Shown here piece after piece: positions 8,408 to 20,057 of a stretch of DNA of 20,057 nt; the stretch's first letter is position 1, and each line of letters opens with the position of its first letter. Source of the DNA: a virus. Location: the IMG/VR virus record IMGVR_UViG_3300046009_015361, positions 1 to 20,057 of that record; one strand, given 5' to 3'. The notes below the pieces were generated by a model. That model was not told the DNA's origin and did no database searches. It saw only the letters and a program-made list of their open reading frames with translations. A program made the position numbers and the translations under genes.

Positions 8408-9301
8408 CTAGCCAAAGCTAAAAAACTTTGAAATATGTTCGTTTAAAGTTAACTCCCAACCTATATCATTATATAATGTCTCTAATTTGTTTCGCATGAT
8501 GCTATCAAACAGTCCCTCTCTATCAATGTATTTCTCTACAATTTCAACTATTTCAGGTGAATCGTTGTAACCATTTAATCCAACTACTGTAAGTTGATAT
8601 GGGTTTGGTTTTAAAATCGCAACATACATTTTATCTCCAATTGTAAACTCTGTATATTTTTTGGTTAACCCTTTAAAACGTAATATATCGTTAGTTGCAA
8701 TTGCTGCTTTTGTGTTTACTGGACATTTTAATTTGAGTTTTGAGAATATTTCTCCAGCCATTGGTTTACGTTCAATATATTCTCCAATTTTCTTTAATCC
8801 GGTTGGTTTTAACAATTTGATCCAATCTATTGTGTTTACCATTTTCTTGAACTCCATTACGTCTTTGTCTATTTCGGTTTTGGATTTTCCAAATAGGATA
8901 TTTTTGATCAAATCTTCTCCAAAGTTTCTAAACAAATCGGGGAAATTTGATTTCATGATATCCAAACCTTTCATCTCCAATTCCTCAAGTGCTACACCTT
9001 CTTTGTTTACAATATACATGGCGTAACGGCGTTTACCAGACCAATATGCTTTTTCAGCGATTACCTCTTGTTTTAATACGAAGTGGTGTTTTGATTGTAT
9101 GTTGAAGAATTGCTGGGATATTTGGTTAAGGTTAGTATTGGCTTTTTCTTGGATTTTGTCTGTAATTTTGAGTAAAGCTTCTATGCGTTTTTCTCTAGGC
9201 CAAGAGTCTGAATCTGGGTAGAGTTTTTGGAGGAGTTTGGTAAGGGTAAAATAGGCACTGTCAGTATCCGAGGCTATAACATGATGAACTTTTATTTCCA
9301 T
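8408..9301 (-). CDS. 43B: DNA polymerase family B, C-terminal half (gp43B-like)
   Basis: A 297-aa palm/thumb part of a T4-type DNA polymerase. The start is the ATG at 9301 (MEIKVHHVIASDTDSAYF); a TTG 12 codons upstream lies within the terminator hairpin. SDTDS (11-15) is motif C with both catalytic aspartates. Further on are EKAYWSGKRRYAMYI (about 83-97), matching the KKRY motif of family B enzymes, and the thumb. With the 625-aa N-terminal piece the total is 922 aa, against 898 for T4 gp43, so nothing large is missing. The two pieces are separated by 1.4 kb holding two other genes and a terminator, so they are probably made as separate polypeptides that assemble. Confidence 0.92.
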   Translation of the reverse strand: MEIKVHHVIASDTDSAYFTLTKLLQKLYPDSDSWPREKRIEALLKITDKIQEKANTNLNQISQQFFNIQSKHHFVLKQEVIAEKAYWSGKRRYAMYIVNKEGVALEELEMKGLDIMKSNFPDLFRNFGEDLIKNILFGKSKTEIDKDVMEFKKMVNTIDWIKLLKPTGLKKIGEYIERKPMAGEIFSKLKLKCPVNTKAAIATNDILRFKGLTKKYTEFTIGDKMYVAILKPNPYQLTVVGLNGYNDSPEIVEIVEKYIDREGLFDSIMRNKLETLYNDIGWELTLNEHISKFFSFG

Positions 9302-9306
9302 AACAT

Positions 9307-9338
9307 TTAATATAAGAAAAAGCCTGCGGGTAGGCAAG
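9307..9338 (-). promoter_or_regulatory. Promoter embedded in a terminator hairpin (copy 5)
   Basis: CTTG (9338-9335), exactly 20 bases, TATATTAA (9314-9307) on the minus strand; the ATG of the polymerase C-terminal half follows after five bases. It gives the split-off half its own transcription start. Confidence 0.6.
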
Positions 9339-9347
9339 CTTTTTTTT
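9317..9347 (-). terminator. Intrinsic terminator hairpin (copy 5)
   Basis: GCTTGC, loop CTACCC, GCAGGC (one G-U pair) with eight A before and five T after on the minus strand. It follows the stop of the leader-family gene at 9353. Confidence 0.75.
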
Positions 9348-9352
9348 AGATT

Positions 9353-9934
9353 TTAAGAATTTATAACGTCGTTTAAATCATCTAAAAATATATTTAACCA
9401 TATATTTTCTATATTTTCATCAAAAAGTATGAGCATATTTTGAGCAAAATTTTCTCTTGGTGAATTCCAATACATGAATTGTAATTCTGGTTTAGCAAAG
9501 TCATCAAAAAATCCATCATAACGTTTTGGATATTGTTGATAAAAAAGATCTGCTGCTTGTTTTAAATTATCGTCGGTTATTTGGTCTTGATCCCAATTTC
9601 CCCCACTACTGTTCCATAATTTTTTAATTTTATCTTTATGGGTAAGAATATAATCGGTAAATATGTCTTTATCTATTTCAAGATCTTCATCTCCACTAAC
9701 AAAAAAAGCATCCCTCAATGTTCCGTTATCTAAAAATTCAACAGGAGGTAATTCTTTTTCTTGGGCATATGCATCTAGATATTCTTTTTCATATGGGGAT
9801 AAACTATCTATTCCTTTAGAGGATATTTTATCTAAAATACGATTTACAATTTCTATATCTTCTAAAAGTTGTTTATATTGACTTTCTGTAATTATACCAG
9901 CCAACATTTGCATACGTAATTGCTCTTGTGTCAT
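9353..9934 (-). CDS. Leader-family acidic protein between polymerase halves, 193 aa
   Basis: The N-terminus MTQEQLRMQMLAGIITE then SQYKQLLED carries the shared leader; I-T-E at 15-17 and L-L-E at about 23-25 fit the (I/L)-x-E prohead protease rule. The body is acidic and aromatic, mostly helical (VNRILDKISSKGID, EKEYLDAYAQEKELP, DDFAKPELQFMYWNS), and not recognised. It sits between the homing endonuclease and the polymerase C-terminal half, an insertion not seen in T4. It lacks the promoter cassette of the copies at 2036 and 8022 and probably depends on upstream transcription. It is closed by terminator copy 5. Confidence 0.8.
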   Translation of the reverse strand: MTQEQLRMQMLAGIITESQYKQLLEDIEIVNRILDKISSKGIDSLSPYEKEYLDAYAQEKELPPVEFLDNGTLRDAFFVSGDEDLEIDKDIFTDYILTHKDKIKKLWNSSGGNWDQDQITDDNLKQAADLFYQQYPKRYDGFFDDFAKPELQFMYWNSPRENFAQNMLILFDENIENIWLNIFLDDLNDVINS

Positions 9935-9963
9935 TTTATACTTTATTATACATATGGAAATTT

Positions 9964-10662
9964 TTATTTATACTTCCATATAAATCCATTAGTTTGGGAA
10001 AAAATACCTCTACATACCTTTGAAATAGTAGAACAATTACTTTTAGTTTTTTCAGCCGCTATCATAGTATTTGGATATTCTGCTATGAAATTCCCATCTA
10101 AATCAAATTGCTGTACTGTTTTTGCTTTTTTAGATGGTTTACCTCTAAGTTTTTCAGATATTCGAGCTCCCATTCCTTCTGGTTTTGGTACACCTTTTCT
10201 AACTTCACGCATCATGTCTCCAAATCCTTCTGGTTTGGGTTTACCTTTAAGTGCTTTGCTTTTTTTCTCCCCTGTACCTTCGGGTTGTTTTTTCCCTTTA
10301 AGGTGTTGGGTAACCCATGGATTTTTTCTTCCTGTAAGTGTATTACTTAATTTTTCTTTGGTTGATTCGCTCATAGTATATCCACCCCATCCATTTTCTG
10401 TTCTAATATTACATAAATTTTCATATCCTATTTGGGTACAAAAATATGATTCTAGTTCAAATGCTTTTTGTTCAGATAAGTTGTTTACAAGAATTTCAGT
10501 TTCAAACCCGTGTTTGTTTACTATGTTCCACCAATATTGGTTTCTACCTGATTTGGATTGGTATCTGTTTTCTTTTCCTTTTCCTATATAAAAACATTTT
10601 CCGTCTGTTTTTTTTCTATGGCAATATATGTAAAAAATATTCTCTTTCATTTTATTATACAT
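9964..10662 (-). CDS. GIY-YIG homing endonuclease with NUMOD repeats
   Basis: A homing endonuclease that would cut a specific DNA site and spread its own gene. The N-terminal GIY-YIG nuclease shows FYIY...CFYIGKGKENRY and the catalytic-type glutamate in KAFELESYF. The middle holds three tandem ~17-residue basic units (KGKKQPEG, KGKPKPEG, KGVPKPEG) plus a partial fourth, i.e. NUMOD3 DNA-binding modules. The C-terminus (VQQFDLDGNFIAEY ... GFIWKYK) is a NUMOD1 helix-turn-helix-like module. The start is taken as the first ATG after the polymerase stop (10662, MYNKMKENIF); the ATG at 10650 is equally possible. It lies exactly where the polymerase gene is split and is probably the agent or relic of the split. 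Confidence 0.9.
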   Translation of the reverse strand: MYNKMKENIFYIYCHRKKTDGKCFYIGKGKENRYQSKSGRNQYWWNIVNKHGFETEILVNNLSEQKAFELESYFCTQIGYENLCNIRTENGWGGYTMSESTKEKLSNTLTGRKNPWVTQHLKGKKQPEGTGEKKSKALKGKPKPEGFGDMMREVRKGVPKPEGMGARISEKLRGKPSKKAKTVQQFDLDGNFIAEYPNTMIAAEKTKSNCSTISKVCRGIFSQTNGFIWKYK

Positions 10663-10696
10663 ATTACCAACTATGGGCAAAGATGACAAGTACTGG

Positions 10697-12574
10697 TCAA
10701 AGATCAAAAATTTCTTTAAGTTCTTCTACATCTATTTCTAGATATTCATCTATCATATCGTTTATACCATCAATACTAGCTTTAACTAACCTTTGACCGC
10801 TGTTGGTTATACCTGCAGAGCAAATTTTAAATCCATCTGTAAAACGCCAAGAATTGATTGCATATGTACCATACAAGGCGTTTTGTAAGATTTTAAATGC
10901 CATCTGGTACAAGTCATATAGTTTATAGTTTGCCCAATCTTCTGCTTTACCAGCAGTTTTCTTAAGTGCTCTGTAATGTTCTCGTTTATCAAACCAATCC
11001 TCCAATACCTCACAGGCAATGCTTTTAATATCGGTTCTAAAAAATGCTCCACTAGCAGAAATTGTCCATTCATTGTCCTCTATGAGTTTGATAAGACTTC
11101 CTATAGGAATATTTGCATCTTTAAGTTGGTATGAGTATTTGTTTAGTTTTTGGATATGGATTTTTTCTTGTGGGTCACGTTGCTTTAATTGCTCTAGCGA
11201 ATTATATTGCTCGTAATTGTCTTTTGTAACAATTCTACCCATCAATGTTTCAACACCCAAATTCAATGATTTGATAATTGAAGGATATAGCGAGGTAAAG
11301 TCAAGGTCGGATACATCTGAGTATAAACCTGGTATAGGGTCAAGTAAATATCCTCCAGCATATGAATCTTTTTTACGAATTGTTTTAGGGTAACGTTGGA
11401 TATATTTGTTGGAGAATGTTTTAACTACAATTGCATCCTTTTCAATACTGTAAACAATACCTTCAATTGTTGGGGTACCTCGTTGATGAATGACATGATC
11501 TCCCAACTCTAATTCTCTAATTGAATTGTTTGTTGTGGTTGGTTTGTTTGGTGCAACTATACCTTTACGTTTCAAGTATGTTAAAATAGCACCCTCATTT
11601 AATGCTGTATTGTAGTAAATTGATTCGTATGGGGTGTGGCATAAATGGGATATCAAAACAGTTAATTCAATGAATTTTAACTTTTCCTCTAATGCCTCTA
11701 TAATCTCAACATCTCGAATGTTATATTCAATAAATTTGATTGGATCTTCTCTAAATAAAGTATCAAGATTACCATTGTACTCTATTTTTCCCATTTTAGC
11801 ATATTTGGTTCCAATATCTCCTAATTTGTAAGATGGTTCTTCCTTCATGATATATTTTCTTAACAATAACATAAAGTCAAGACAATTTACAAGTCCAATT
11901 TTAATTGGAGAGTTTGGTTGGGATGGAACTTCATCAATTTTACCTACAGGAGATAAACGATATACTTCATCTCCTAAACGTTTTTTAATCCTATAGTACA
12001 AATACGGGATATCGAAGAAATCTGAATTCCATCCTACTACAATTGTAGGGTCCATTTGTTCCCATTTCAATAAAAATTTACGTAATAGTGTATTTTCATC
12101 AGGGCAAGATACAATTACTTTTCCATCTGCCTCCAAATCATCAATGTTACCTTGTTTATCTAAGATAAAACATGTTTTTTCTTTTGTGGCAGCATCAATT
12201 AAAGCAATAGCTGTAACTTCAGCATTTGCCTCTTTTATGGTTTGGGGTGTAAGTGCTCCTAAAATTTCAATCTCAATATCCAAATAAACGGTATTGTGAT
12301 AAGAGGGCATATCATCTGTTTCGTAGTACAAGTCTCTTAAAAGTACCAATTCACGGTCAATATCTTTTTCATATATTGTAGGATCTTTTCTATCATATTT
12401 GCCTTGAAAGGCAGAACACCTTTCACCAAATAGTGTAAAGTGTTCTCCCTCTTCATCAAGTTTATATAAAGTAGGCCAATATTGGAATTTATGTATTCCT
12501 TTTTCATCGTCCCTTAGATAGTAATGGTACTGATCCTCGCCGGGTTGTCTTGTATAATGGACTGATTGGTACAA
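10697..12574 (-). CDS. 43A: DNA polymerase family B, N-terminal part (gp43A-like)
   Basis: A 625-aa part of the replicative polymerase with proofreading domain and most of the palm and fingers. Exo I is LDIEIE (98-103; D99, E101), Exo II WNSDFFD (182-188), Exo III YNIRD (284-288), motif A DLDFTSLYPSI (423-433) and motif B KILQNALYG (561-569). It stops at EIFDL, after motif B and before motif C, which is encoded at 8408-9301. Residues about 345-402 look like an extra small beta domain (LGDHVIHQRGTPTIEG) between the usual GIVAPNKP and GGYLLDPIPGLY. The start is a TTG at 12574: an in-frame TAA lies four codons upstream and there is no ATG until residue 89, so a rare start codon is needed. This kind of split is known for gp43 of some Aeromonas T4-like phages. 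Confidence 0.93.
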   Translation of the reverse strand: MYQSVHYTRQPGEDQYHYYLRDDEKGIHKFQYWPTLYKLDEEGEHFTLFGERCSAFQGKYDRKDPTIYEKDIDRELVLLRDLYYETDDMPSYHNTVYLDIEIEILGALTPQTIKEANAEVTAIALIDAATKEKTCFILDKQGNIDDLEADGKVIVSCPDENTLLRKFLLKWEQMDPTIVVGWNSDFFDIPYLYYRIKKRLGDEVYRLSPVGKIDEVPSQPNSPIKIGLVNCLDFMLLLRKYIMKEEPSYKLGDIGTKYAKMGKIEYNGNLDTLFREDPIKFIEYNIRDVEIIEALEEKLKFIELTVLISHLCHTPYESIYYNTALNEGAILTYLKRKGIVAPNKPTTTNNSIRELELGDHVIHQRGTPTIEGIVYSIEKDAIVVKTFSNKYIQRYPKTIRKKDSYAGGYLLDPIPGLYSDVSDLDFTSLYPSIIKSLNLGVETLMGRIVTKDNYEQYNSLEQLKQRDPQEKIHIQKLNKYSYQLKDANIPIGSLIKLIEDNEWTISASGAFFRTDIKSIACEVLEDWFDKREHYRALKKTAGKAEDWANYKLYDLYQMAFKILQNALYGTYAINSWRFTDGFKICSAGITNSGQRLVKASIDGINDMIDEYLEIDVEELKEIFDL

Positions 12575-13735: not shown

Positions 13736-14740
13736 CTAACATACTAAACTTCTATATACCTCTACTGGCACATCGGGGGTTAAACCACCAGGTACACCTT
13801 TTACTAGTACTGAAATAGCATCATGTGAGTGCAATGATTCTAAGTGGGAACAAATGATTTTAAAATCTTTAATGGAAGGATTTTTTTCTAATTGTTCGTG
13901 GATTAAACGAGCTGCATCCTCTACAAATTTCAAATTAGCTCCATTCAATTCAGCAAATGCCTGCTCGTCTTCACGTTTAACCATAACTTGTGTTTCTGTT
14001 TGTAACGCTTCAACACACATGTCTCTCAAATCCTCGATCCATACCATCTTGTCAAATTCAATGGTGATACGAGTTTTACTACGTTGAGAGTGGGACACAA
14101 CTGCTTTGTTACGTTCTTCCATCGCTTGCATAGCTAATTCAAATGAACATGGACATGCAGATGAGTATACAAAATCAAAATGGATGAATTTTTTCAATGT
14201 ACCATCTGATTTATGTTGCGCCTCCAATGACACATTGTAGTATTGGTATCCAGATAACCCACTGCGAAGTGAATTTTGGATGATAGGAAAACTAAAATTT
14301 AATATGATGTGGGCATCATATGAACCCAGTTTGTCTTTGTAGCTGGATAAGATGTTTTCTAGTAGGTCGATGGAAAATGTTTGGTCTTTGTACTCGTAAA
14401 ATGAGCGCATGATTCGAGACATGTTGATGCCTTTCTTCTCTGCTTCTAATGATACAGTGCCTGTAACTCCAGTTTCCAATTCAATTGTGCTTCCGTCTTT
14501 TCTACGGAAAGTTAATGGTAAGCGGAAATTGTGGATTCCTACTTGGTGAATTTTAGTATGGGATCCTTGAATATTAGCTGAGGGGCCATTTTGTAAATCA
14601 TGTAGAGTTGAAATATATTCTTCTGTTGCTTTAAAGTTAGTATCGTAAGTGCGATCTAAACGATTACCCAATGAATTCGGATCATCTTTATACGGTAATG
14701 AACCTTCATCACCTAACCATTCATAAGTTGTGTTTTTCAT
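13736..14740 (-). CDS. folE2: GTP cyclohydrolase FolE2 (type IB)
   Basis: A 334-aa FolE2/COG1469 protein: it converts GTP to 7,8-dihydroneopterin triphosphate, the first step toward 7-deazaguanines (and folate). The signature is clear: SSACPCSFELA with the metal/catalytic cysteine region (193-203), SHSQRSKTRI (216-225; the HxQR motif), VMVKREDE (252-259), KFVEDAARLI (271-280) and HLESLHSHDA (299-308). Unlike FolE (type IA), FolE2 does not require zinc and works with other metals such as Mn. It has its own promoter (14756-14787) and lies 3-5 kb from the other preQ0 genes, with virion-type genes between. A ~50-residue N-terminal extension precedes the core. Confidence 0.92.
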   Translation of the reverse strand: MKNTTYEWLGDEGSLPYKDDPNSLGNRLDRTYDTNFKATEEYISTLHDLQNGPSANIQGSHTKIHQVGIHNFRLPLTFRRKDGSTIELETGVTGTVSLEAEKKGINMSRIMRSFYEYKDQTFSIDLLENILSSYKDKLGSYDAHIILNFSFPIIQNSLRSGLSGYQYYNVSLEAQHKSDGTLKKFIHFDFVYSSACPCSFELAMQAMEERNKAVVSHSQRSKTRITIEFDKMVWIEDLRDMCVEALQTETQVMVKREDEQAFAELNGANLKFVEDAARLIHEQLEKNPSIKDFKIICSHLESLHSHDAISVLVKGVPGGLTPDVPVEVYRSLVC

Positions 14741-14794: not shown

Positions 14795-15613
14795 TTACAA
14801 ATAATTGAATTTGTTAAAGTACCAAGCATAATGTTGTTTAATTTTATCACAATTATGGAATCCTAGAATGCTTATATAATCTTGCGGTACTGGTTTAATT
14901 GGGCTTTGGATCTGGTGGTCTCCAAATATTCCATGTATAACATCATTTTCGTGGGTTAATTGTTCAATGTTGTTAAAGTCGTGCTTGCAGTATGGAATTT
15001 CTAGATAATTGTATATGCGTTGCATTTCTGCCTCTGGGTTTGATGTAAAGTCTTCAAATCGAATGTAAAGAAAATGACTGTCGTATCCTTGTAAATGAGA
15101 GTCATATAGCCACTCTAAAGCAGGTCCAATAGGTGGGGCAACAGAAAAATGTTGTAAACGTGAATCCGTTGTCATGTTTTGAAGTTGAGCTCCGTTTACA
15201 ATTTGAGGGTCTTTGTGTGGGTTCTTTCTGTAATTTTTTTCCATAGAGGCAAATATACCTCTCAAATCTCGAACCATTACAATAGCTTTTGCTCCTGGTT
15301 CAATGAAATTTGCAAAACGAAAATTACCTGTCCATGCTCTACTTTTGTCTATAACGTAAGGACGATCTGTTAGAGCATCAAAGTAACCGTATAAACCAGC
15401 TCTACAAAAACCATGGAATGCTTTTTCCATTTCTTTTACATCTTGTGCTTTAAATGCATCCCCAGTTGAATAAATTGTACGTGCTGTTAATAGAAATTCT
15501 ACTATACCTGAAGTTGGTGTTGCATATATTTCAGGATTCTGCATTAAAACATTTTGTAACAGAGTTGAGCCTGCTCGTGGAAGCGAGGCGTTGAAAAAAA
15601 CCTTTTTTACCAT
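14795..15613 (-). CDS. Sulfotransferase family protein, 272 aa
   Basis: A PAPS-dependent sulfotransferase fold. The 5'-phosphosulfate loop is LPRAGSTLL (11-19), the 3'-phosphate segment is VMVRDLRGIFASM (112-124; R115 and S123 in the expected places), and a downstream RFEDFTSNPEAEMQRIYNYL (about 185-204) is the usual C-terminal helix motif. It would transfer sulfate to a sugar, protein or small molecule. It directly follows the fibre-like gene (21-base gap) with no terminator between, so the two are probably cotranscribed. A role in modifying virion or host-surface glycans is a guess from this position. The catalytic acid/base cannot be fixed by eye. Confidence 0.85.
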   Translation of the reverse strand: MVKKVFFNASLPRAGSTLLQNVLMQNPEIYATPTSGIVEFLLTARTIYSTGDAFKAQDVKEMEKAFHGFCRAGLYGYFDALTDRPYVIDKSRAWTGNFRFANFIEPGAKAIVMVRDLRGIFASMEKNYRKNPHKDPQIVNGAQLQNMTTDSRLQHFSVAPPIGPALEWLYDSHLQGYDSHFLYIRFEDFTSNPEAEMQRIYNYLEIPYCKHDFNNIEQLTHENDVIHGIFGDHQIQSPIKPVPQDYISILGFHNCDKIKQHYAWYFNKFNYL

Positions 15614-15634: not shown

Positions 15635-17143
15635 TTAAGCTTTGTGTAACATCACTTTGTATAAAGATCCGTTTAAGTTTATCTCTAATGTTCTGTTTGA
15701 AGTTAAAGATTCTATTGCAATTGGTCCAAGTGGATGAGTTGTTGAACCTAAAGCAAGTTGTCCATTTGCTGTTGCTGCAGCCCCCGCTCCTAAAATAAGT
15801 GAGTTGGAAAAATCACTCGTTTGAACGTTGTATCCTAATCCTGTATTGTGGGAACCAGTAACATTATTAAGTAAAGCTTTATATCCTAGGGCAACGTTAA
15901 ACATTCCTGTTGTATTGTATTCTAGAGCTTGAGTACCTAAAGCAATATTTTGATATCCTGAATTATTATTGACTAGGGCTCTATATCCTAAAGCAACGTT
16001 AAACATTCCTGTTGTATTGTATTTTAATGATGCATACCCTGCAGCAATATTATTATTTCCTGTTGTATTTGAAAATAAAGAGACTCGGCCTAAAGCAATA
16101 TTATCTGAACCTGAGGTATTAGATTCTAAAGCACCTTCACCTAAAGCAACGTTATAGTTTCCTGTTGTGTTTTGGTTTAGTGAATTTGCTCCTAAAGCAA
16201 TGTTGTTATGTCCTATTGTATTACTATTTAAAGTTAAAAAACCTAAAGCAATATTAGAAGTTCCTGTTGTATTTGCTTGTAAAGCACTGTTACCTAGAGA
16301 AATGTTGTTGTGTCCTTCTATATTTGAATATAATGCTTTGTAACCTTGAGCTATGTTGTGTGAGCCTGAGGTATTTTTATTTAATGCCTCGATACCTAAA
16401 GCAATGTTGTAGTTTCCTGTTGAATTTAAGTATAAAGCCGCATTACCTAAAGCAATATTTTGGTTTCCGGTTATATTGTTTTGCAAAGCACCTTCACCTA
16501 AAGCAACGTTGTTGTTTCCTGTTGTGTTTGAATATAATGCTTTGTAGCCTTGGGCTATGTTATTTGAGCCTGATGTATTGTATTTTAATGTATGTCTACC
16601 TAAAGCAACGTTGTTAATTCCTGTTGAATTGTATTTTAAAGTATTTATACCTAAAGCAACGTTGTAGTTTCCTTCTGTATTATTTAGTAAAGCACTATTA
16701 CCTAAAGCAACGTTGTAGTTTCCTGTTATGTTTGAATATAATGCTTTGTAACCTTGAGCTATGTTGTGGTTTCCTGTTTCATTTGCACGTAAAGCATTAT
16801 TACCTAAAGCAACGTTGTAGTTTCCTGTTGAATTTGTAACTAAAACACCTGCACCTAAAGCAACGTTGTATTGTCCTGTTGAATTGTTAGATAAGGTATC
16901 TGGGCCTAGAGCAATATTACTTGAAATACTACCTGCACCAATCCCTAAATTCAATCCATTAATTGAGCCTGTTACACCTAACGATCCTGTTATTTCAGCT
17001 GAGCCTGTAAATGGGAAAGGTGATCCAGCAGATTGGATAGAGGAAGACAAATATAAAAGGTTATCATCCATTTCCTGGATTGTAAGTTTAGATCCTTTTG
17101 GGTTTGGTCCGTATTGTCTGGTTAAAAGTGGTCCGTATGGCAT
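15635..17143 (-). CDS. Fibre-like repeat protein, 502 aa
   Basis: Residues 1-70 are a non-repetitive head (MPYGPLLTRQYGPNPKGSKL, then EMDDNLLYLSSSIQ and a Gly/Ser/Thr-rich linker), probably a virion attachment region. Residues 71-446 hold 22 tandem units, all but the first exactly 17 residues, with consensus G-N-x-N-(V/I)-A-L-G-x-x-A-L-x-x-N-T-T. Residues 447-502 form a C-terminal cap (LILGAGAAATANGQLALGS ... KVMLHKA). The units resemble the beta-solenoid heads of trimeric adhesins (YadA/Hep_Hag type) and repeats of Bacteroidota surface proteins. I infer a tail fibre or other surface fibre. There is no S74 self-cleaving chaperone domain. Units 4, 8 and 12 share NIAQGYKALYSN, giving a 68-residue higher-order period. 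Confidence 0.85.
   Translation of the reverse strand: MPYGPLLTRQYGPNPKGSKLTIQEMDDNLLYLSSSIQSAGSPFPFTGSAEITGSLGVTGSINGLNLGIGAGSISSNIALGPDTLSNNSTGQYNVALGAGVLVTNSTGNYNVALGNNALRANETGNHNIAQGYKALYSNITGNYNVALGNSALLNNTEGNYNVALGINTLKYNSTGINNVALGRHTLKYNTSGSNNIAQGYKALYSNTTGNNNVALGEGALQNNITGNQNIALGNAALYLNSTGNYNIALGIEALNKNTSGSHNIAQGYKALYSNIEGHNNISLGNSALQANTTGTSNIALGFLTLNSNTIGHNNIALGANSLNQNTTGNYNVALGEGALESNTSGSDNIALGRVSLFSNTTGNNNIAAGYASLKYNTTGMFNVALGYRALVNNNSGYQNIALGTQALEYNTTGMFNVALGYKALLNNVTGSHNTGLGYNVQTSDFSNSLILGAGAAATANGQLALGSTTHPLGPIAIESLTSNRTLEINLNGSLYKVMLHKA
15806..16933. repeat. 51-bp tandem repeats in fibre gene, 22 units
   Basis: Twenty-two consecutive units, 51 bp each except a longer first unit, with strongly conserved words such as the plus-strand CCTAAAGCAA recurring through the array. 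A 204-bp superperiod (4 units) is visible in the first twelve units, and a 102-bp one near the end (units 19 and 21 share GMFNVALGY). Confidence 0.9.
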
Positions 17144-17462: not shown

Positions 17463-17864
17463 TTATAATTTGTAATCTTGGATAGTATTTGAATCTTCTC
17501 TCTCCCAAGGATATACAATCCAATCATCTAAGAAAAATTTATTGGCTGAAAAATCTGGGTTAAAGTCAGATGTATGAGGTTTAAAATGTAAACAAGCAAA
17601 TATAGAATTAGGGTATTCAAGGAAAAATTCTTTAAATGTTTCTCCACTGTCACAAATATCATCTACAATTAAAACATTTTGTCTGGTTGGGTCTTGTGTC
17701 ATTGGAATACCTAACTTATATGAAAGCATAACAGCAGGTATAAGTCCTCCACGTTGTAAACCAAATATATATTCAATTTGGGTTCCTGATTGAACAATTT
17801 GTTTTGCTAGAAGATCAACTAGTTTTTCTACTTCATCCCATGTAACATAAAACTTTTCCATCAC
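17463..17864 (-). CDS. Phosphoribosyltransferase (purine type), 133 aa
   Basis: A type I phosphoribosyltransferase: the PRPP-binding loop VLIVDDICDSGETF (64-77) is canonical, and FGLQRGGLIPAVMLSYKLGIP (34-54) matches the N-terminal PPi-loop region of xanthine/hypoxanthine (Gpt-like) enzymes. It would join a purine-like base to PRPP to make a nucleotide. The ATG overlaps the queE stop as ATGA, so it is coupled to 7-deazaguanine synthesis. This suggests, without proof, that its base could be preQ0 or a host purine. It is short (133 aa) but holds the core fold. The last gene of the que group. Confidence 0.82.
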   Translation of the reverse strand: MMEKFYVTWDEVEKLVDLLAKQIVQSGTQIEYIFGLQRGGLIPAVMLSYKLGIPMTQDPTRQNVLIVDDICDSGETFKEFFLEYPNSIFACLHFKPHTSDFNPDFSANKFFLDDWIVYPWEREDSNTIQDYKL

Positions 17865-18643
17865 ACACCTCTTTTAGTATCAAATGCTATGATGTGGTCA
17901 CGTCCTGTCATATTGTATCCCTTTTCAGCACACATATCAAATACAAGTGGGTACATTTTGATTAGTTCCTCTCTTGTATCTCCAGCTGGCATAATATATG
18001 TTTTATGTTTTGGGATTTCTAGAGCTAATCTAAATGTTTCTATTTCGTTTAAGTTTTCCTCTGTACCATCCCATACTGGTTTATAATGGTAATCGAAATG
18101 ATATTCTAGAGTTTGTTTGATAGTGTCTAATTTTAAACGAAATTTATTGTGTTGGTCAATCATTTTTTGGTCCACAATCGCTCCTTGAGGCGTAGAAACA
18201 CCAAGTACGGGTACAGAATTACTAAACTTTGGACTGAGAGATATAAGATCAATAGGGTAGTCTGTAGCGAGGAAATGAGAACCTTCGGTTTCAATAGTGA
18301 TAAGAATATTTCTTTCATGAGCAAAATGGGTTAGTTCGTTTACTAGTTTTGGATGCATCGATGGACTCCCTCCGGTAAGCATCATTTCTTTGATGTGTGG
18401 GTTCTCGTCATATATTTTTATAATATCGTTAAAAGTAAACGTGCCCTTTTCTGGGTGGATTGAAGTATACCATGAATCGCACCATCCACCTTCACCAAAA
18501 TAACACCTATGCGTGCAACCCGTAGTTCTTACAGCTATGGTTGGTCTGCCAAATCTCGAACCTTCACTTTGAACACATCGATATAATTCTACTATAGGTA
18601 AAACCTTGTTATAGTCTTCTATTCTTCCTAATTTTGATTCCAT
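17861..18643 (-). CDS. queE: 7-carboxy-7-deazaguanine synthase QueE
   Basis: A radical SAM enzyme (260 aa) converting 6-carboxytetrahydropterin to 7-carboxy-7-deazaguanine. Start PIVELYRCVQSEGSRFGRPT (16-35) is the typical QueE opening (substrate-binding QSEG). The cluster motif is C43-x3-C47-x7-C55 (GCTHRC...WCDSW), with five more residues between the second and third cysteines than the usual C-x3-C-x2-C; the family tolerates such insertions. MLTGGSPSMHP (88-98) is the SAM-binding GGE/GGSP region, and TIETEGS (136-142) follows. It overlaps the thioredoxin gene by 16 bases and the phosphoribosyltransferase by four. Confidence 0.93.
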   Translation of the reverse strand: MESKLGRIEDYNKVLPIVELYRCVQSEGSRFGRPTIAVRTTGCTHRCYFGEGGWCDSWYTSIHPEKGTFTFNDIIKIYDENPHIKEMMLTGGSPSMHPKLVNELTHFAHERNILITIETEGSHFLATDYPIDLISLSPKFSNSVPVLGVSTPQGAIVDQKMIDQHNKFRLKLDTIKQTLEYHFDYHYKPVWDGTEENLNEIETFRLALEIPKHKTYIMPAGDTREELIKMYPLVFDMCAEKGYNMTGRDHIIAFDTKRGV

Positions 18644-18876
18644 AAATTTCTTACCTGTGATTCTGTTAAAACTCCGGCTTGCTTTCCTACAGCTTGCCCA
18701 TTATTTACTACAACGATTGTTGGAACGTTTCTAATTCCATATTCAGCAACCAATTGCGGGTTTGCATCCACATCAATGAATTGAACTGTCATTTCATTAC
18801 TTAGTGATTCCATAATTGGTTTAAAATTTTTGCACGGGCCACACCACGCAGCAGAGAAGTATAGTATTTTTTTCAT
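18628..18876 (-). CDS. trx: Small thioredoxin, 82 aa
   Basis: A short thioredoxin with active site WCGPC (11-15), the cis-proline loop NVPTIVVV (50-57) and the terminal helix. At 82 aa it lacks the first strand and helix of E. coli thioredoxin (~108 aa), like other short phage thioredoxins and glutaredoxins. It is a disulfide reductant, for example for ribonucleotide reductase. Its stop lies inside queE (16-base overlap), so it belongs to the que transcript; it might reduce an enzyme of that path. A promoter-like site lies in the 57-base gap upstream. Confidence 0.93.
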   Translation of the reverse strand: MKKILYFSAAWCGPCKNFKPIMESLSNEMTVQFIDVDANPQLVAEYGIRNVPTIVVVNNGQAVGKQAGVLTESQVRNLWNQN

Positions 18877-18933: not shown

Positions 18934-19536
18934 TTATTCTCCATAACTTGCTGAGTTTCTTTCGTGTTCGTATACTTCAACTTTAATTGCTTTAACTCTA
19001 CCATCTGTTTCGACTAATAAAAAGTTATTTATTATATTGTATAAGTATTCTGCAAATCGTTCACATCCGGTAGCAGGTAGAATTCTTAGTCGGATAATAC
19101 CATCAGTATCCATCTGTCTAAATTGTTCTAGGTATGGATCATCTTCAGCTATAATTGTTGTATGGTCTAAAAGGTATGTAAAATAATCTTTTGGTGGAAC
19201 ACCTCTAATATTATTTTTAGCTCTTTTCATACCTCCAAAATCCCATACCCAATTTCTTTCATCTAATTCACCCTCAAACCATACTCTAAATGATACTGCG
19301 TAACCATGTAAAAATTTGCAATGAGTATCTTCTGCTTTCCATTGACGAAAACATGTTGAGTAACCGTCAAATAATTTTGTTGATGTGAATTTTTTCATTT
19401 TATTTTTCTTTTCCATAATTTTTTGATGTAGTTCCCAATCTAATATACAACTATTTTTCCAATTTATCCAATCTTCTTGAGTCATTGAATCCAAAGCAGA
19501 ATCTAGTTCTTCATTTAGTTTGTCCCAATTAGCCAT
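18934..19536 (-). CDS. queD: QueD-like 6-carboxytetrahydropterin synthase, N-terminally extended
   Basis: A 200-aa protein whose residues ~47-200 match QueD, which makes 6-carboxy-5,6,7,8-tetrahydropterin from dihydroneopterin triphosphate. FRQWKAEDTHCKFLHGYAVS (63-82) contains the catalytic Cys (C73) and one zinc His (H77), but HGH is HGY (Y79) and the upstream zinc His (AAHR in E. coli) is replaced in TCFR (61-64). LDHTTII (123-129) keeps the catalytic Asp-His. VYEHERNSASY (188-198) is the usual end. FRQW...HCKFLHGY seems typical of a marine/phage subfamily, from memory. Residues 1-46 (EELDSALDSMTQEDWINWKN) are an added acidic helical segment of unknown role. It overlaps queC by eight bases. 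Confidence 0.87.
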   Translation of the reverse strand: MANWDKLNEELDSALDSMTQEDWINWKNSCILDWELHQKIMEKKNKMKKFTSTKLFDGYSTCFRQWKAEDTHCKFLHGYAVSFRVWFEGELDERNWVWDFGGMKRAKNNIRGVPPKDYFTYLLDHTTIIAEDDPYLEQFRQMDTDGIIRLRILPATGCERFAEYLYNIINNFLLVETDGRVKAIKVEVYEHERNSASYGE

Positions 19537-20057
19537 TGTGTGTTTCTAAAACTTTTGTTACTTCATTTACTACATGTTCCCATGTTACAGGGCCTGTTTC
19601 GTCTGCATATTCAACAGGATCTTTACGTCCCAATTTAATGAATGCTTCTACACGTTCAACAGATGAAGCTGATTTATAGTCGGAAAACCAAATTTCAGAG
19701 ATAACATTGATTTCATTTTCTGTTCCTTCAAATCTTTTTTCTTCTTTTAATTTTTTAATTGGTTTGTATGAAGTGTTTGTACGTGAATATACTTCGTTAA
19801 AATCTAAACCTAATTCTTCACACAATACTTCTCCATCTTGTAGGATAGTAAATTTATCACCTTCAAGGTATGGTGTAAAGTAACCTACTTTTTCAGATCC
19901 CCAATTACCTACTCTAAATGCATGATCGTCTGCATCTCTAAATTCTTGTCTGCAATCTGGATAAATTGCATGATCACCTGCATGAATCCCAAGTGCGATA
20001 TCACAATTTTCACCTGTTTTATCTGCAATTGAAAGTGCAACTGCTTGAACAATATCT
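19529..20057 (-). CDS. queC: 7-cyano-7-deazaguanine synthase QueC, partial, zinc cysteines lost
   Basis: The frame is open from the right edge to the stop at 19529 (175 residues seen). The N-terminal part, with the SGGxDS ATP loop, is outside the window. GIHAGDHAIYPDCRQEF is the QueC signature, followed by TPYLEGDKFTIL and LCEELGLDFNEVYSRTNTSY. QueC would convert 7-carboxy-7-deazaguanine to preQ0. In known QueC a zinc ion is held by WSCY and CGxCxxC; here these read NTSY and DYKSASS before VERVEAF, so all four cysteines are replaced (Ser, Asp, Ser, Ser). The surrounding VERVEAF...DPVEYAD is otherwise conserved, so this is not decay. An insert (about 20 residues) lies between the two half-sites. 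Confidence 0.88.
   Translation of the reverse strand, partial: DIVQAVALSIADKTGENCDIALGIHAGDHAIYPDCRQEFRDADDHAFRVGNWGSEKVGYFTPYLEGDKFTILQDGEVLCEELGLDFNEVYSRTNTSYKPIKKLKEEKRFEGTENEINVISEIWFSDYKSASSVERVEAFIKLGRKDPVEYADETGPVTWEHVVNEVTKVLETHNG

Follow-up and report, generated by a model that had tools for sequence, protein, structure and literature searches.

A QueC without zinc-binding cysteines was confirmed to be fixed in a large phage family, as a conserved protein and not as a single odd gene. We consider it, with a probability of about 75%, to be a putative phage preQ0 (7-cyano-7-deazaguanine) synthase that has the QueC fold and works without structural zinc.

Replacement of the zinc ligands in the window QueC

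The source window is a virus record of 20,057 bases, and the last gene on its minus strand is queC-like and of the zinc-free type; only the 3′ part of this gene (19529-20056, C-terminal 175 codons) is included, and its 5′ end lies beyond the window. The assignment was based on PF06508, TIGR00364, and the relatives. The 175-residue fragment scored 34.3 bits against the QueC domain PF06508 (threshold 22) and 34.4 bits against TIGR00364, and 80 viral relatives shared 67-83% identity with it. The N-terminal part of about 110 residues, which carries the P-loop, YGQxH, and VPNRN, is outside the window and visible in the relatives only. The original prediction had described an intact, long frame; the frame is long, and since it runs off the window end, the gene is presumably rather than visibly intact.

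The zinc-site positions were taken from the alignment with mycobacteriophage QueC (TWSCY...CGRCGTCVERAEAF), other phage QueC, and E. coli QueC. The window QueC reads TSYKP and SDYKSASSVER, while the usual QueC has TCY and CGxCxxCxxR. All four ligands were indeed replaced, as had been claimed, and both the alignment with phage and bacterial QueC and the codons gave Ser, Asp, Ser, and Ser. The first ligand is Ser (TCA, 19769-19771) in the TSY motif (19766-19774, minus strand), in which the next Tyr is kept. The second is Asp (GAC, 19679-19681), the third Ser (TCA, 19670-19672), and the fourth Ser (TCT, 19661-19663), all three within SDYKSASSVER (19652-19684, minus strand), which stands in place of CGxCxxCxxR. 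Between the two motifs lies an insertion of variable length, KPIKK...SEIWF (19685-19765, minus strand), predicted to be a β-hairpin from the loop lengths in relatives and a structure model. The substrate-pocket motif YPDC (19952-19963, minus strand; located, like TSY, by alignment and codon positions) is kept, and aligning phage and E. coli QueC shows that the ER.EAF...DP..YAD tail is kept as well; VERVEAF and DPVEYAD follow the replaced site just as the original prediction had stated. In E. coli QueC, key residues in motifs of the SGGxDS, YGQxH, VPNRN, YPDC, and TSY types are essential, including the Tyr of YPDC, as shown by mutagenesis, and Y189, the Tyr beside the first zinc ligand (PMC13329287).

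Conservation of the cysteine-free motif in phage relatives

More than 500 relatives were found in viral contigs, of which 80 were kept; together with the cultured Flavobacterium phage immuto (QueC, NC_055915 gp028, YP_010114440), 81 relatives were compared (phage group 1). SD(Y/F)KSASSVER was present in the window and in every one of them, immuto included, giving 82 copies in 56 DNA spellings, and the sole amino-acid exchange in the 11-residue motif was Y/F. So many spellings with only one kind of exchange indicate strong purifying selection rather than chance. Cysteines at these positions were found in none of the 81 close relatives, which ruled out a sequencing or strain error as the cause of their loss; they occurred only in more distant sequences, such as the zinc-bearing loci L209 and L216 (43-48% in alignment A4). 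No conserved Cys or His that could act as a substitute ligand was present near the former zinc site in the window and the 81 relatives.

In the full-length relatives, SGGMDSS, YGQKH, VVPNRN, YPDC, and TSY were all kept. The insertion between TSYKP and SDYKSASS was 5-38 residues long in the relatives, and the canonical spacing is much shorter. Against TIGR00364, locus L004 scored 122.8 bits and immuto 122.1 bits; group-1 phage and archaeal QueC were generally below the NCBI QueC equivalog cut-off (122-134 versus 150.3 bits). Given this score and the missing zinc motif, the apt label for the present is "zinc-free QueC variant".

Structure model and a proposed metal-free arrangement

The AlphaFold2 model of L004, calculated from alignment A4 (55 loci sequences), was confident, with a mean pLDDT of 93.8 and values of about 86-98 by blocks in the former zinc region, and its best PDB matches were the QueC structures 2pg3 (E 4e-10) and 3bl5. 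In the model, the insertion forms two strands (residues 226-233 and 239-247), and the helix of residues 252-264 begins in SASS. Because AlphaFold2 is blind to metals, the model supports an ordered site and is not proof of an absent metal.

According to the proposed mechanism, the four-cysteine C-terminal knuckle would be replaced by a metal-free arrangement in which Ser and Asp side chains occupy the former ligand positions. The final three of these positions would lie at the start of the helix as a helix cap, with the β-hairpin of variable length inserted before it. Via hydrogen bonds, the Ser and Asp side chains may hold the loop and the essential Tyr of TSY next to the active site, and the enzyme would then catalyse both of the usual ATP-dependent reactions, from CDG to ADG to preQ0, for phage DNA modification. 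The absence of metal, the activity, the product, and its use in DNA are what we infer for the cysteine-free QueC.

The replacing residues are strictly conserved oxygen donors, as would be expected if a metal other than zinc, such as Mg, Ca, or K, were bound at a re-tuned Asp/Ser site. However, other cysteine-free groups have SGKSGAD or TGKDHAS there, with no common pattern of oxygen ligands, and the adjacent variable insertion argues against a tight cage, so that such a metal site is unlikely. With a low probability, the invariant SDYKSASS may do more than substitute for zinc and add a function, for example by contacting another protein such as QueD, thioredoxin, or an ammonia donor, or by altering the second, nitrile-forming step, and the zinc-free QueCs would then be a distinct catalytic class. 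Decay of the gene, or a new role in modifying proteins as in QatC or Cap9, is very improbable. There are precedents for repurposed QueC scaffolds (PMC13329287, PMC13279940), but QatC and Cap9 keep the zinc cysteines, and the window gene is under strong purifying selection on its sequence with pathway genes adjacent. No qat or CBASS partner genes were found near the window queC; its neighbours are queD, queE, and folE2.

Cysteine-free QueC in archaea and planctomycetes

When one genome of each prokaryote species was scanned, the nearest cellular relatives turned up in archaea of the Poseidoniia (Marine Group II) and in a small number of Pirellulaceae/planctomycetes, with an identity in the best segment of mostly 40-46%. 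The cysteines were absent from these proteins too, which read TSYNPDxxGRSSGKSGADVERILAF; the best-scoring Pirellulales QueCs otherwise retain them. In a PF06508 search of 20 genomes, the cysteine-free gene was usually the sole strong QueC match, the exceptions being a MAG that also had a canonical copy, another that had two cysteine-free copies, and the Bacteroidetes genome G029, which is zinc-bearing. Exactly one QueC gene was found in 92 of the 119 Poseidoniia genomes, and the four-Cys site was absent in 27 of 28 newly read Poseidoniia loci, one of the 27 retaining a single Cys and the 28th being canonical. An in-frame fusion of QueC with a SelR domain (MsrB, methionine sulfoxide reductase) occurs in many Marine Group II archaea, one example being L187 (5001-6089).

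The genes folE, queE, queC, and queD were consecutive in most archaeal loci, and a search of 13 archaeal genomes detected arcTGT in 11 of them. QueF, TGT, and QueA were present in all five planctomycete genomes with a cysteine-free QueC as the only QueC. Since QueF reduces preQ0, cells of this kind need preQ0. Salvage of preQ0 from hosts or surroundings is possible, which makes the co-occurrence with QueF and QueA indirect evidence, but a conserved queC would then be without purpose in these cells. The suggestion of the original prediction that this QueC folds without zinc was well supported by the conserved replacement, the other catalytic motifs kept, the confident model, and its position as sole QueC in archaeal and planctomycete genomes that have the full pathway.

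A second cysteine-free phage lineage

All four ligands were also gone in the QueC of Rhizobium phage RHEph06, Pseudanabaena phage Pan1, and Pseudomonas virus Pa-V (Iggyvirus), which carry the signature T[AS]YDGxYPPxGxDHAxxLRAxGF (phage group 2). Scanning viral contigs for this group, we found the ligands absent in 70 of 80 relatives, while the other 10 retain TCYAGEYPPCGKCHSCVLRA. The trees, computed without the zinc-site columns, placed group 2 far from the group of the window, and a single origin of all cysteine-free QueC was rejected (AU p = 8.3e-7), so at least two zinc losses have occurred. A single loss for phage group 1, archaea, and planctomycetes was compatible with the data (AU p = 0.205). 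In free trees, the zinc-bearing L209 and L216 fell inside this clade, by which two losses are possible there. Within group 2, the zinc-bearing QueCs of L153, L170, L171, and L177 were nested in the cysteine-free sequences (L122 and others); repeated loss, regain, or recombination with swapping of the C-terminal part may explain this nesting.

The product of the cysteine-free QueC

The most likely product is the usual one, preQ0, predicted to be made without zinc. A stop at a different 7-deazaguanine had also been suggested for the window gene. In the form considered here, the cysteine-free QueC would go no further than 7-amido-7-deazaguanine (ADG), or would leave CDG as it is, and this base would then be the one in the phage DNA. 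The window, a 20 kb fragment, has neither QueF nor DpdA, and 6 of 10 larger phage relatives yielded no QueF, although their records are possibly fragments. In addition, dADG phages exist (PMC8306585). However, QueF, which needs preQ0, occurs beside the cysteine-free QueC in immuto, Pan1, and the five planctomycete genomes. QueF was also present in the other four of the 10 larger relatives and in 17 of 73 group-2 loci. Besides DpdA and a formyltransferase-like protein, the immuto genome encodes a QueF with two domains, which scored 262.9 bits against TIGR03138, somewhat below the cut-off of 293.45, with PF14819 and PF14489 above theirs; in Pan1, QueF lies two genes downstream of QueC with 132.5 bits against TIGR03139, above the cut-off. 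The guanines of phage CP220 are replaced by dADG, as cited in PMC8306585, and its QueC still has all four cysteines (SCY...CNVCPTC). From CP220 and the QueF genes, zinc loss and a stop at ADG are not linked in the available data; a dADG link was likewise rejected for MED16, which encodes DpdA only. The full-length relatives keep every residue needed for preQ0 formation, and a changed product is unsupported and improbable.

Among phages with measured DNA, Rosebush, a member of the zinc-bearing group and a relative of Godines, is nearest in motif style, and its DNA carries dPreQ0 (PMC6884629). DpdL, a known dDG-type decarboxylase, has no part in the present reading.

Pathway neighbours and other genes of the window

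The minus strand of the window carries further pathway genes. The queD gene (6-carboxytetrahydropterin synthase type; 18934-19536) matched PF01242 with 56.4 bits and phrog_2389, and its frame overlaps that of queC by 8 bases. The overlap had been called normal; it does exist, but the queD frame there begins with about 46 additional residues (19390-19536) that are absent from the immuto QueD. The conserved start is further in, and the true start may be internal. A thioredoxin-like protein (18628-18876; PF00085, 66.7 bits) is encoded between queD and queE, the latter (17861-18643) being of the radical SAM 7-carboxy-7-deazaguanine synthase type with 165 bits against phrog_2076 and 56 bits, below the cut-off, against TIGR03365. 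A phosphoribosyltransferase-like protein (17463-17864; PF00156, 41 bits) is also found by the pathway genes in immuto (L082, 31931-32326). The first pathway enzyme is encoded by folE2 (GTP cyclohydrolase IB; 13736-14740) with 236 bits against PF02649 and 272 bits, above the cut-off, against NF010200.

FolE2 is a zinc-independent GTP cyclohydrolase. The window QueD is a variant with FRQW(K/R)A..HC..LHGY (FRQWKA in the window), in which two of the three zinc-binding His are gone while the catalytic Cys, the Asp-His, and the Glu are kept; the variant is common to the window, L082, L098, L099, L100, L094, L187, and L195, and to many phages and some Poseidoniales. With FolE2 in place of FolE, and QueD and QueC without zinc ligands, sparing of zinc throughout the pathway could have driven the loss. 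However, FolE1, a zinc enzyme, is present in most relatives, the variant QueD occurs beside zinc QueC and the His QueD beside cysteine-free QueC, most Poseidoniales loci keep the HGH QueD, and the Poseidoniales QueC is often fused with SelR (MsrB), a domain in which Cys pairs are present. As FolE1 is usual and the QueD and QueC types are freely combined, zinc sparing is unsupported as a rule, and we regard it as quite improbable.

Other genes were observed on the same strand. A sulfotransferase-family protein (14795-15613; PF13469, 59.8 bits) lies between a repeat-rich frame (15635-17143) and folE2. The family B DNA polymerase seems split (8408-12574), with an N-terminal part (12574-10697) and a polymerase-like part (9337-8408), between which lie a frame resembling a NUMOD3 homing endonuclease (10707-9964) and a further leader protein. 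Four otherwise different proteins (1034, 2404, 8330, and 9919) share an N-terminal leader of the LRMQMLAGIITE(G/S)QYK type, possibly a capsid-targeting peptide cut by a phage prohead protease.

Comparison with known QueC and significance

Canonical QueC (PF06508 cluster 1; B. subtilis 3bl5, Erwinia 2pg3) and the window type have in common the fold, SGGxDS, YxQxH, VPxRN, YPDC, the Tyr after the first ligand, and the queD/queE operon context. The window type differs in the replacement of the four zinc cysteines, the variable insertion before the helix, and a score below the TIGR00364 cut-off. The mycobacteriophage Rosebushvirus (Godines) QueC shares the C-terminal ER.EAF..G..DP..YAD region and the VPxGHYAEDNM..TVVPNRN stretch, but keeps TWSCY and CGRCGTC and is about 33% identical. 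The QueC of Poseidoniia and some Pirellulaceae is likewise without zinc ligands, with TSY, 44-52% identity in alignment A4, and a pathway operon in archaea; it differs in having SGKSGADVER for SDYKSASSVER, no long insertion, and in archaea often the MsrB fusion. In RHEph06, Pan1, and Iggyvirus, the four cysteines are also lost and the other motifs kept, with a different motif and a separate origin. Our literature search, which did not extend to a study of additional 7-deazaguanines in phages (NAR, 2023), found no report of a zinc-free phage or Poseidoniales QueC.

The annotation of group-1 phage and archaeal QueC, which fall under the NCBI cut-off, would be corrected by this finding, and phage group 2 offers matched pairs with and without zinc at about 55% identity for direct comparison. 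The zinc motif is regarded as a hallmark of QueC, and the role of zinc in the reaction is unsettled. A natural zinc-free QueC, lost of its zinc at least two times and serving as the sole QueC of most examined Poseidoniia, would show that the zinc is structural and dispensable.
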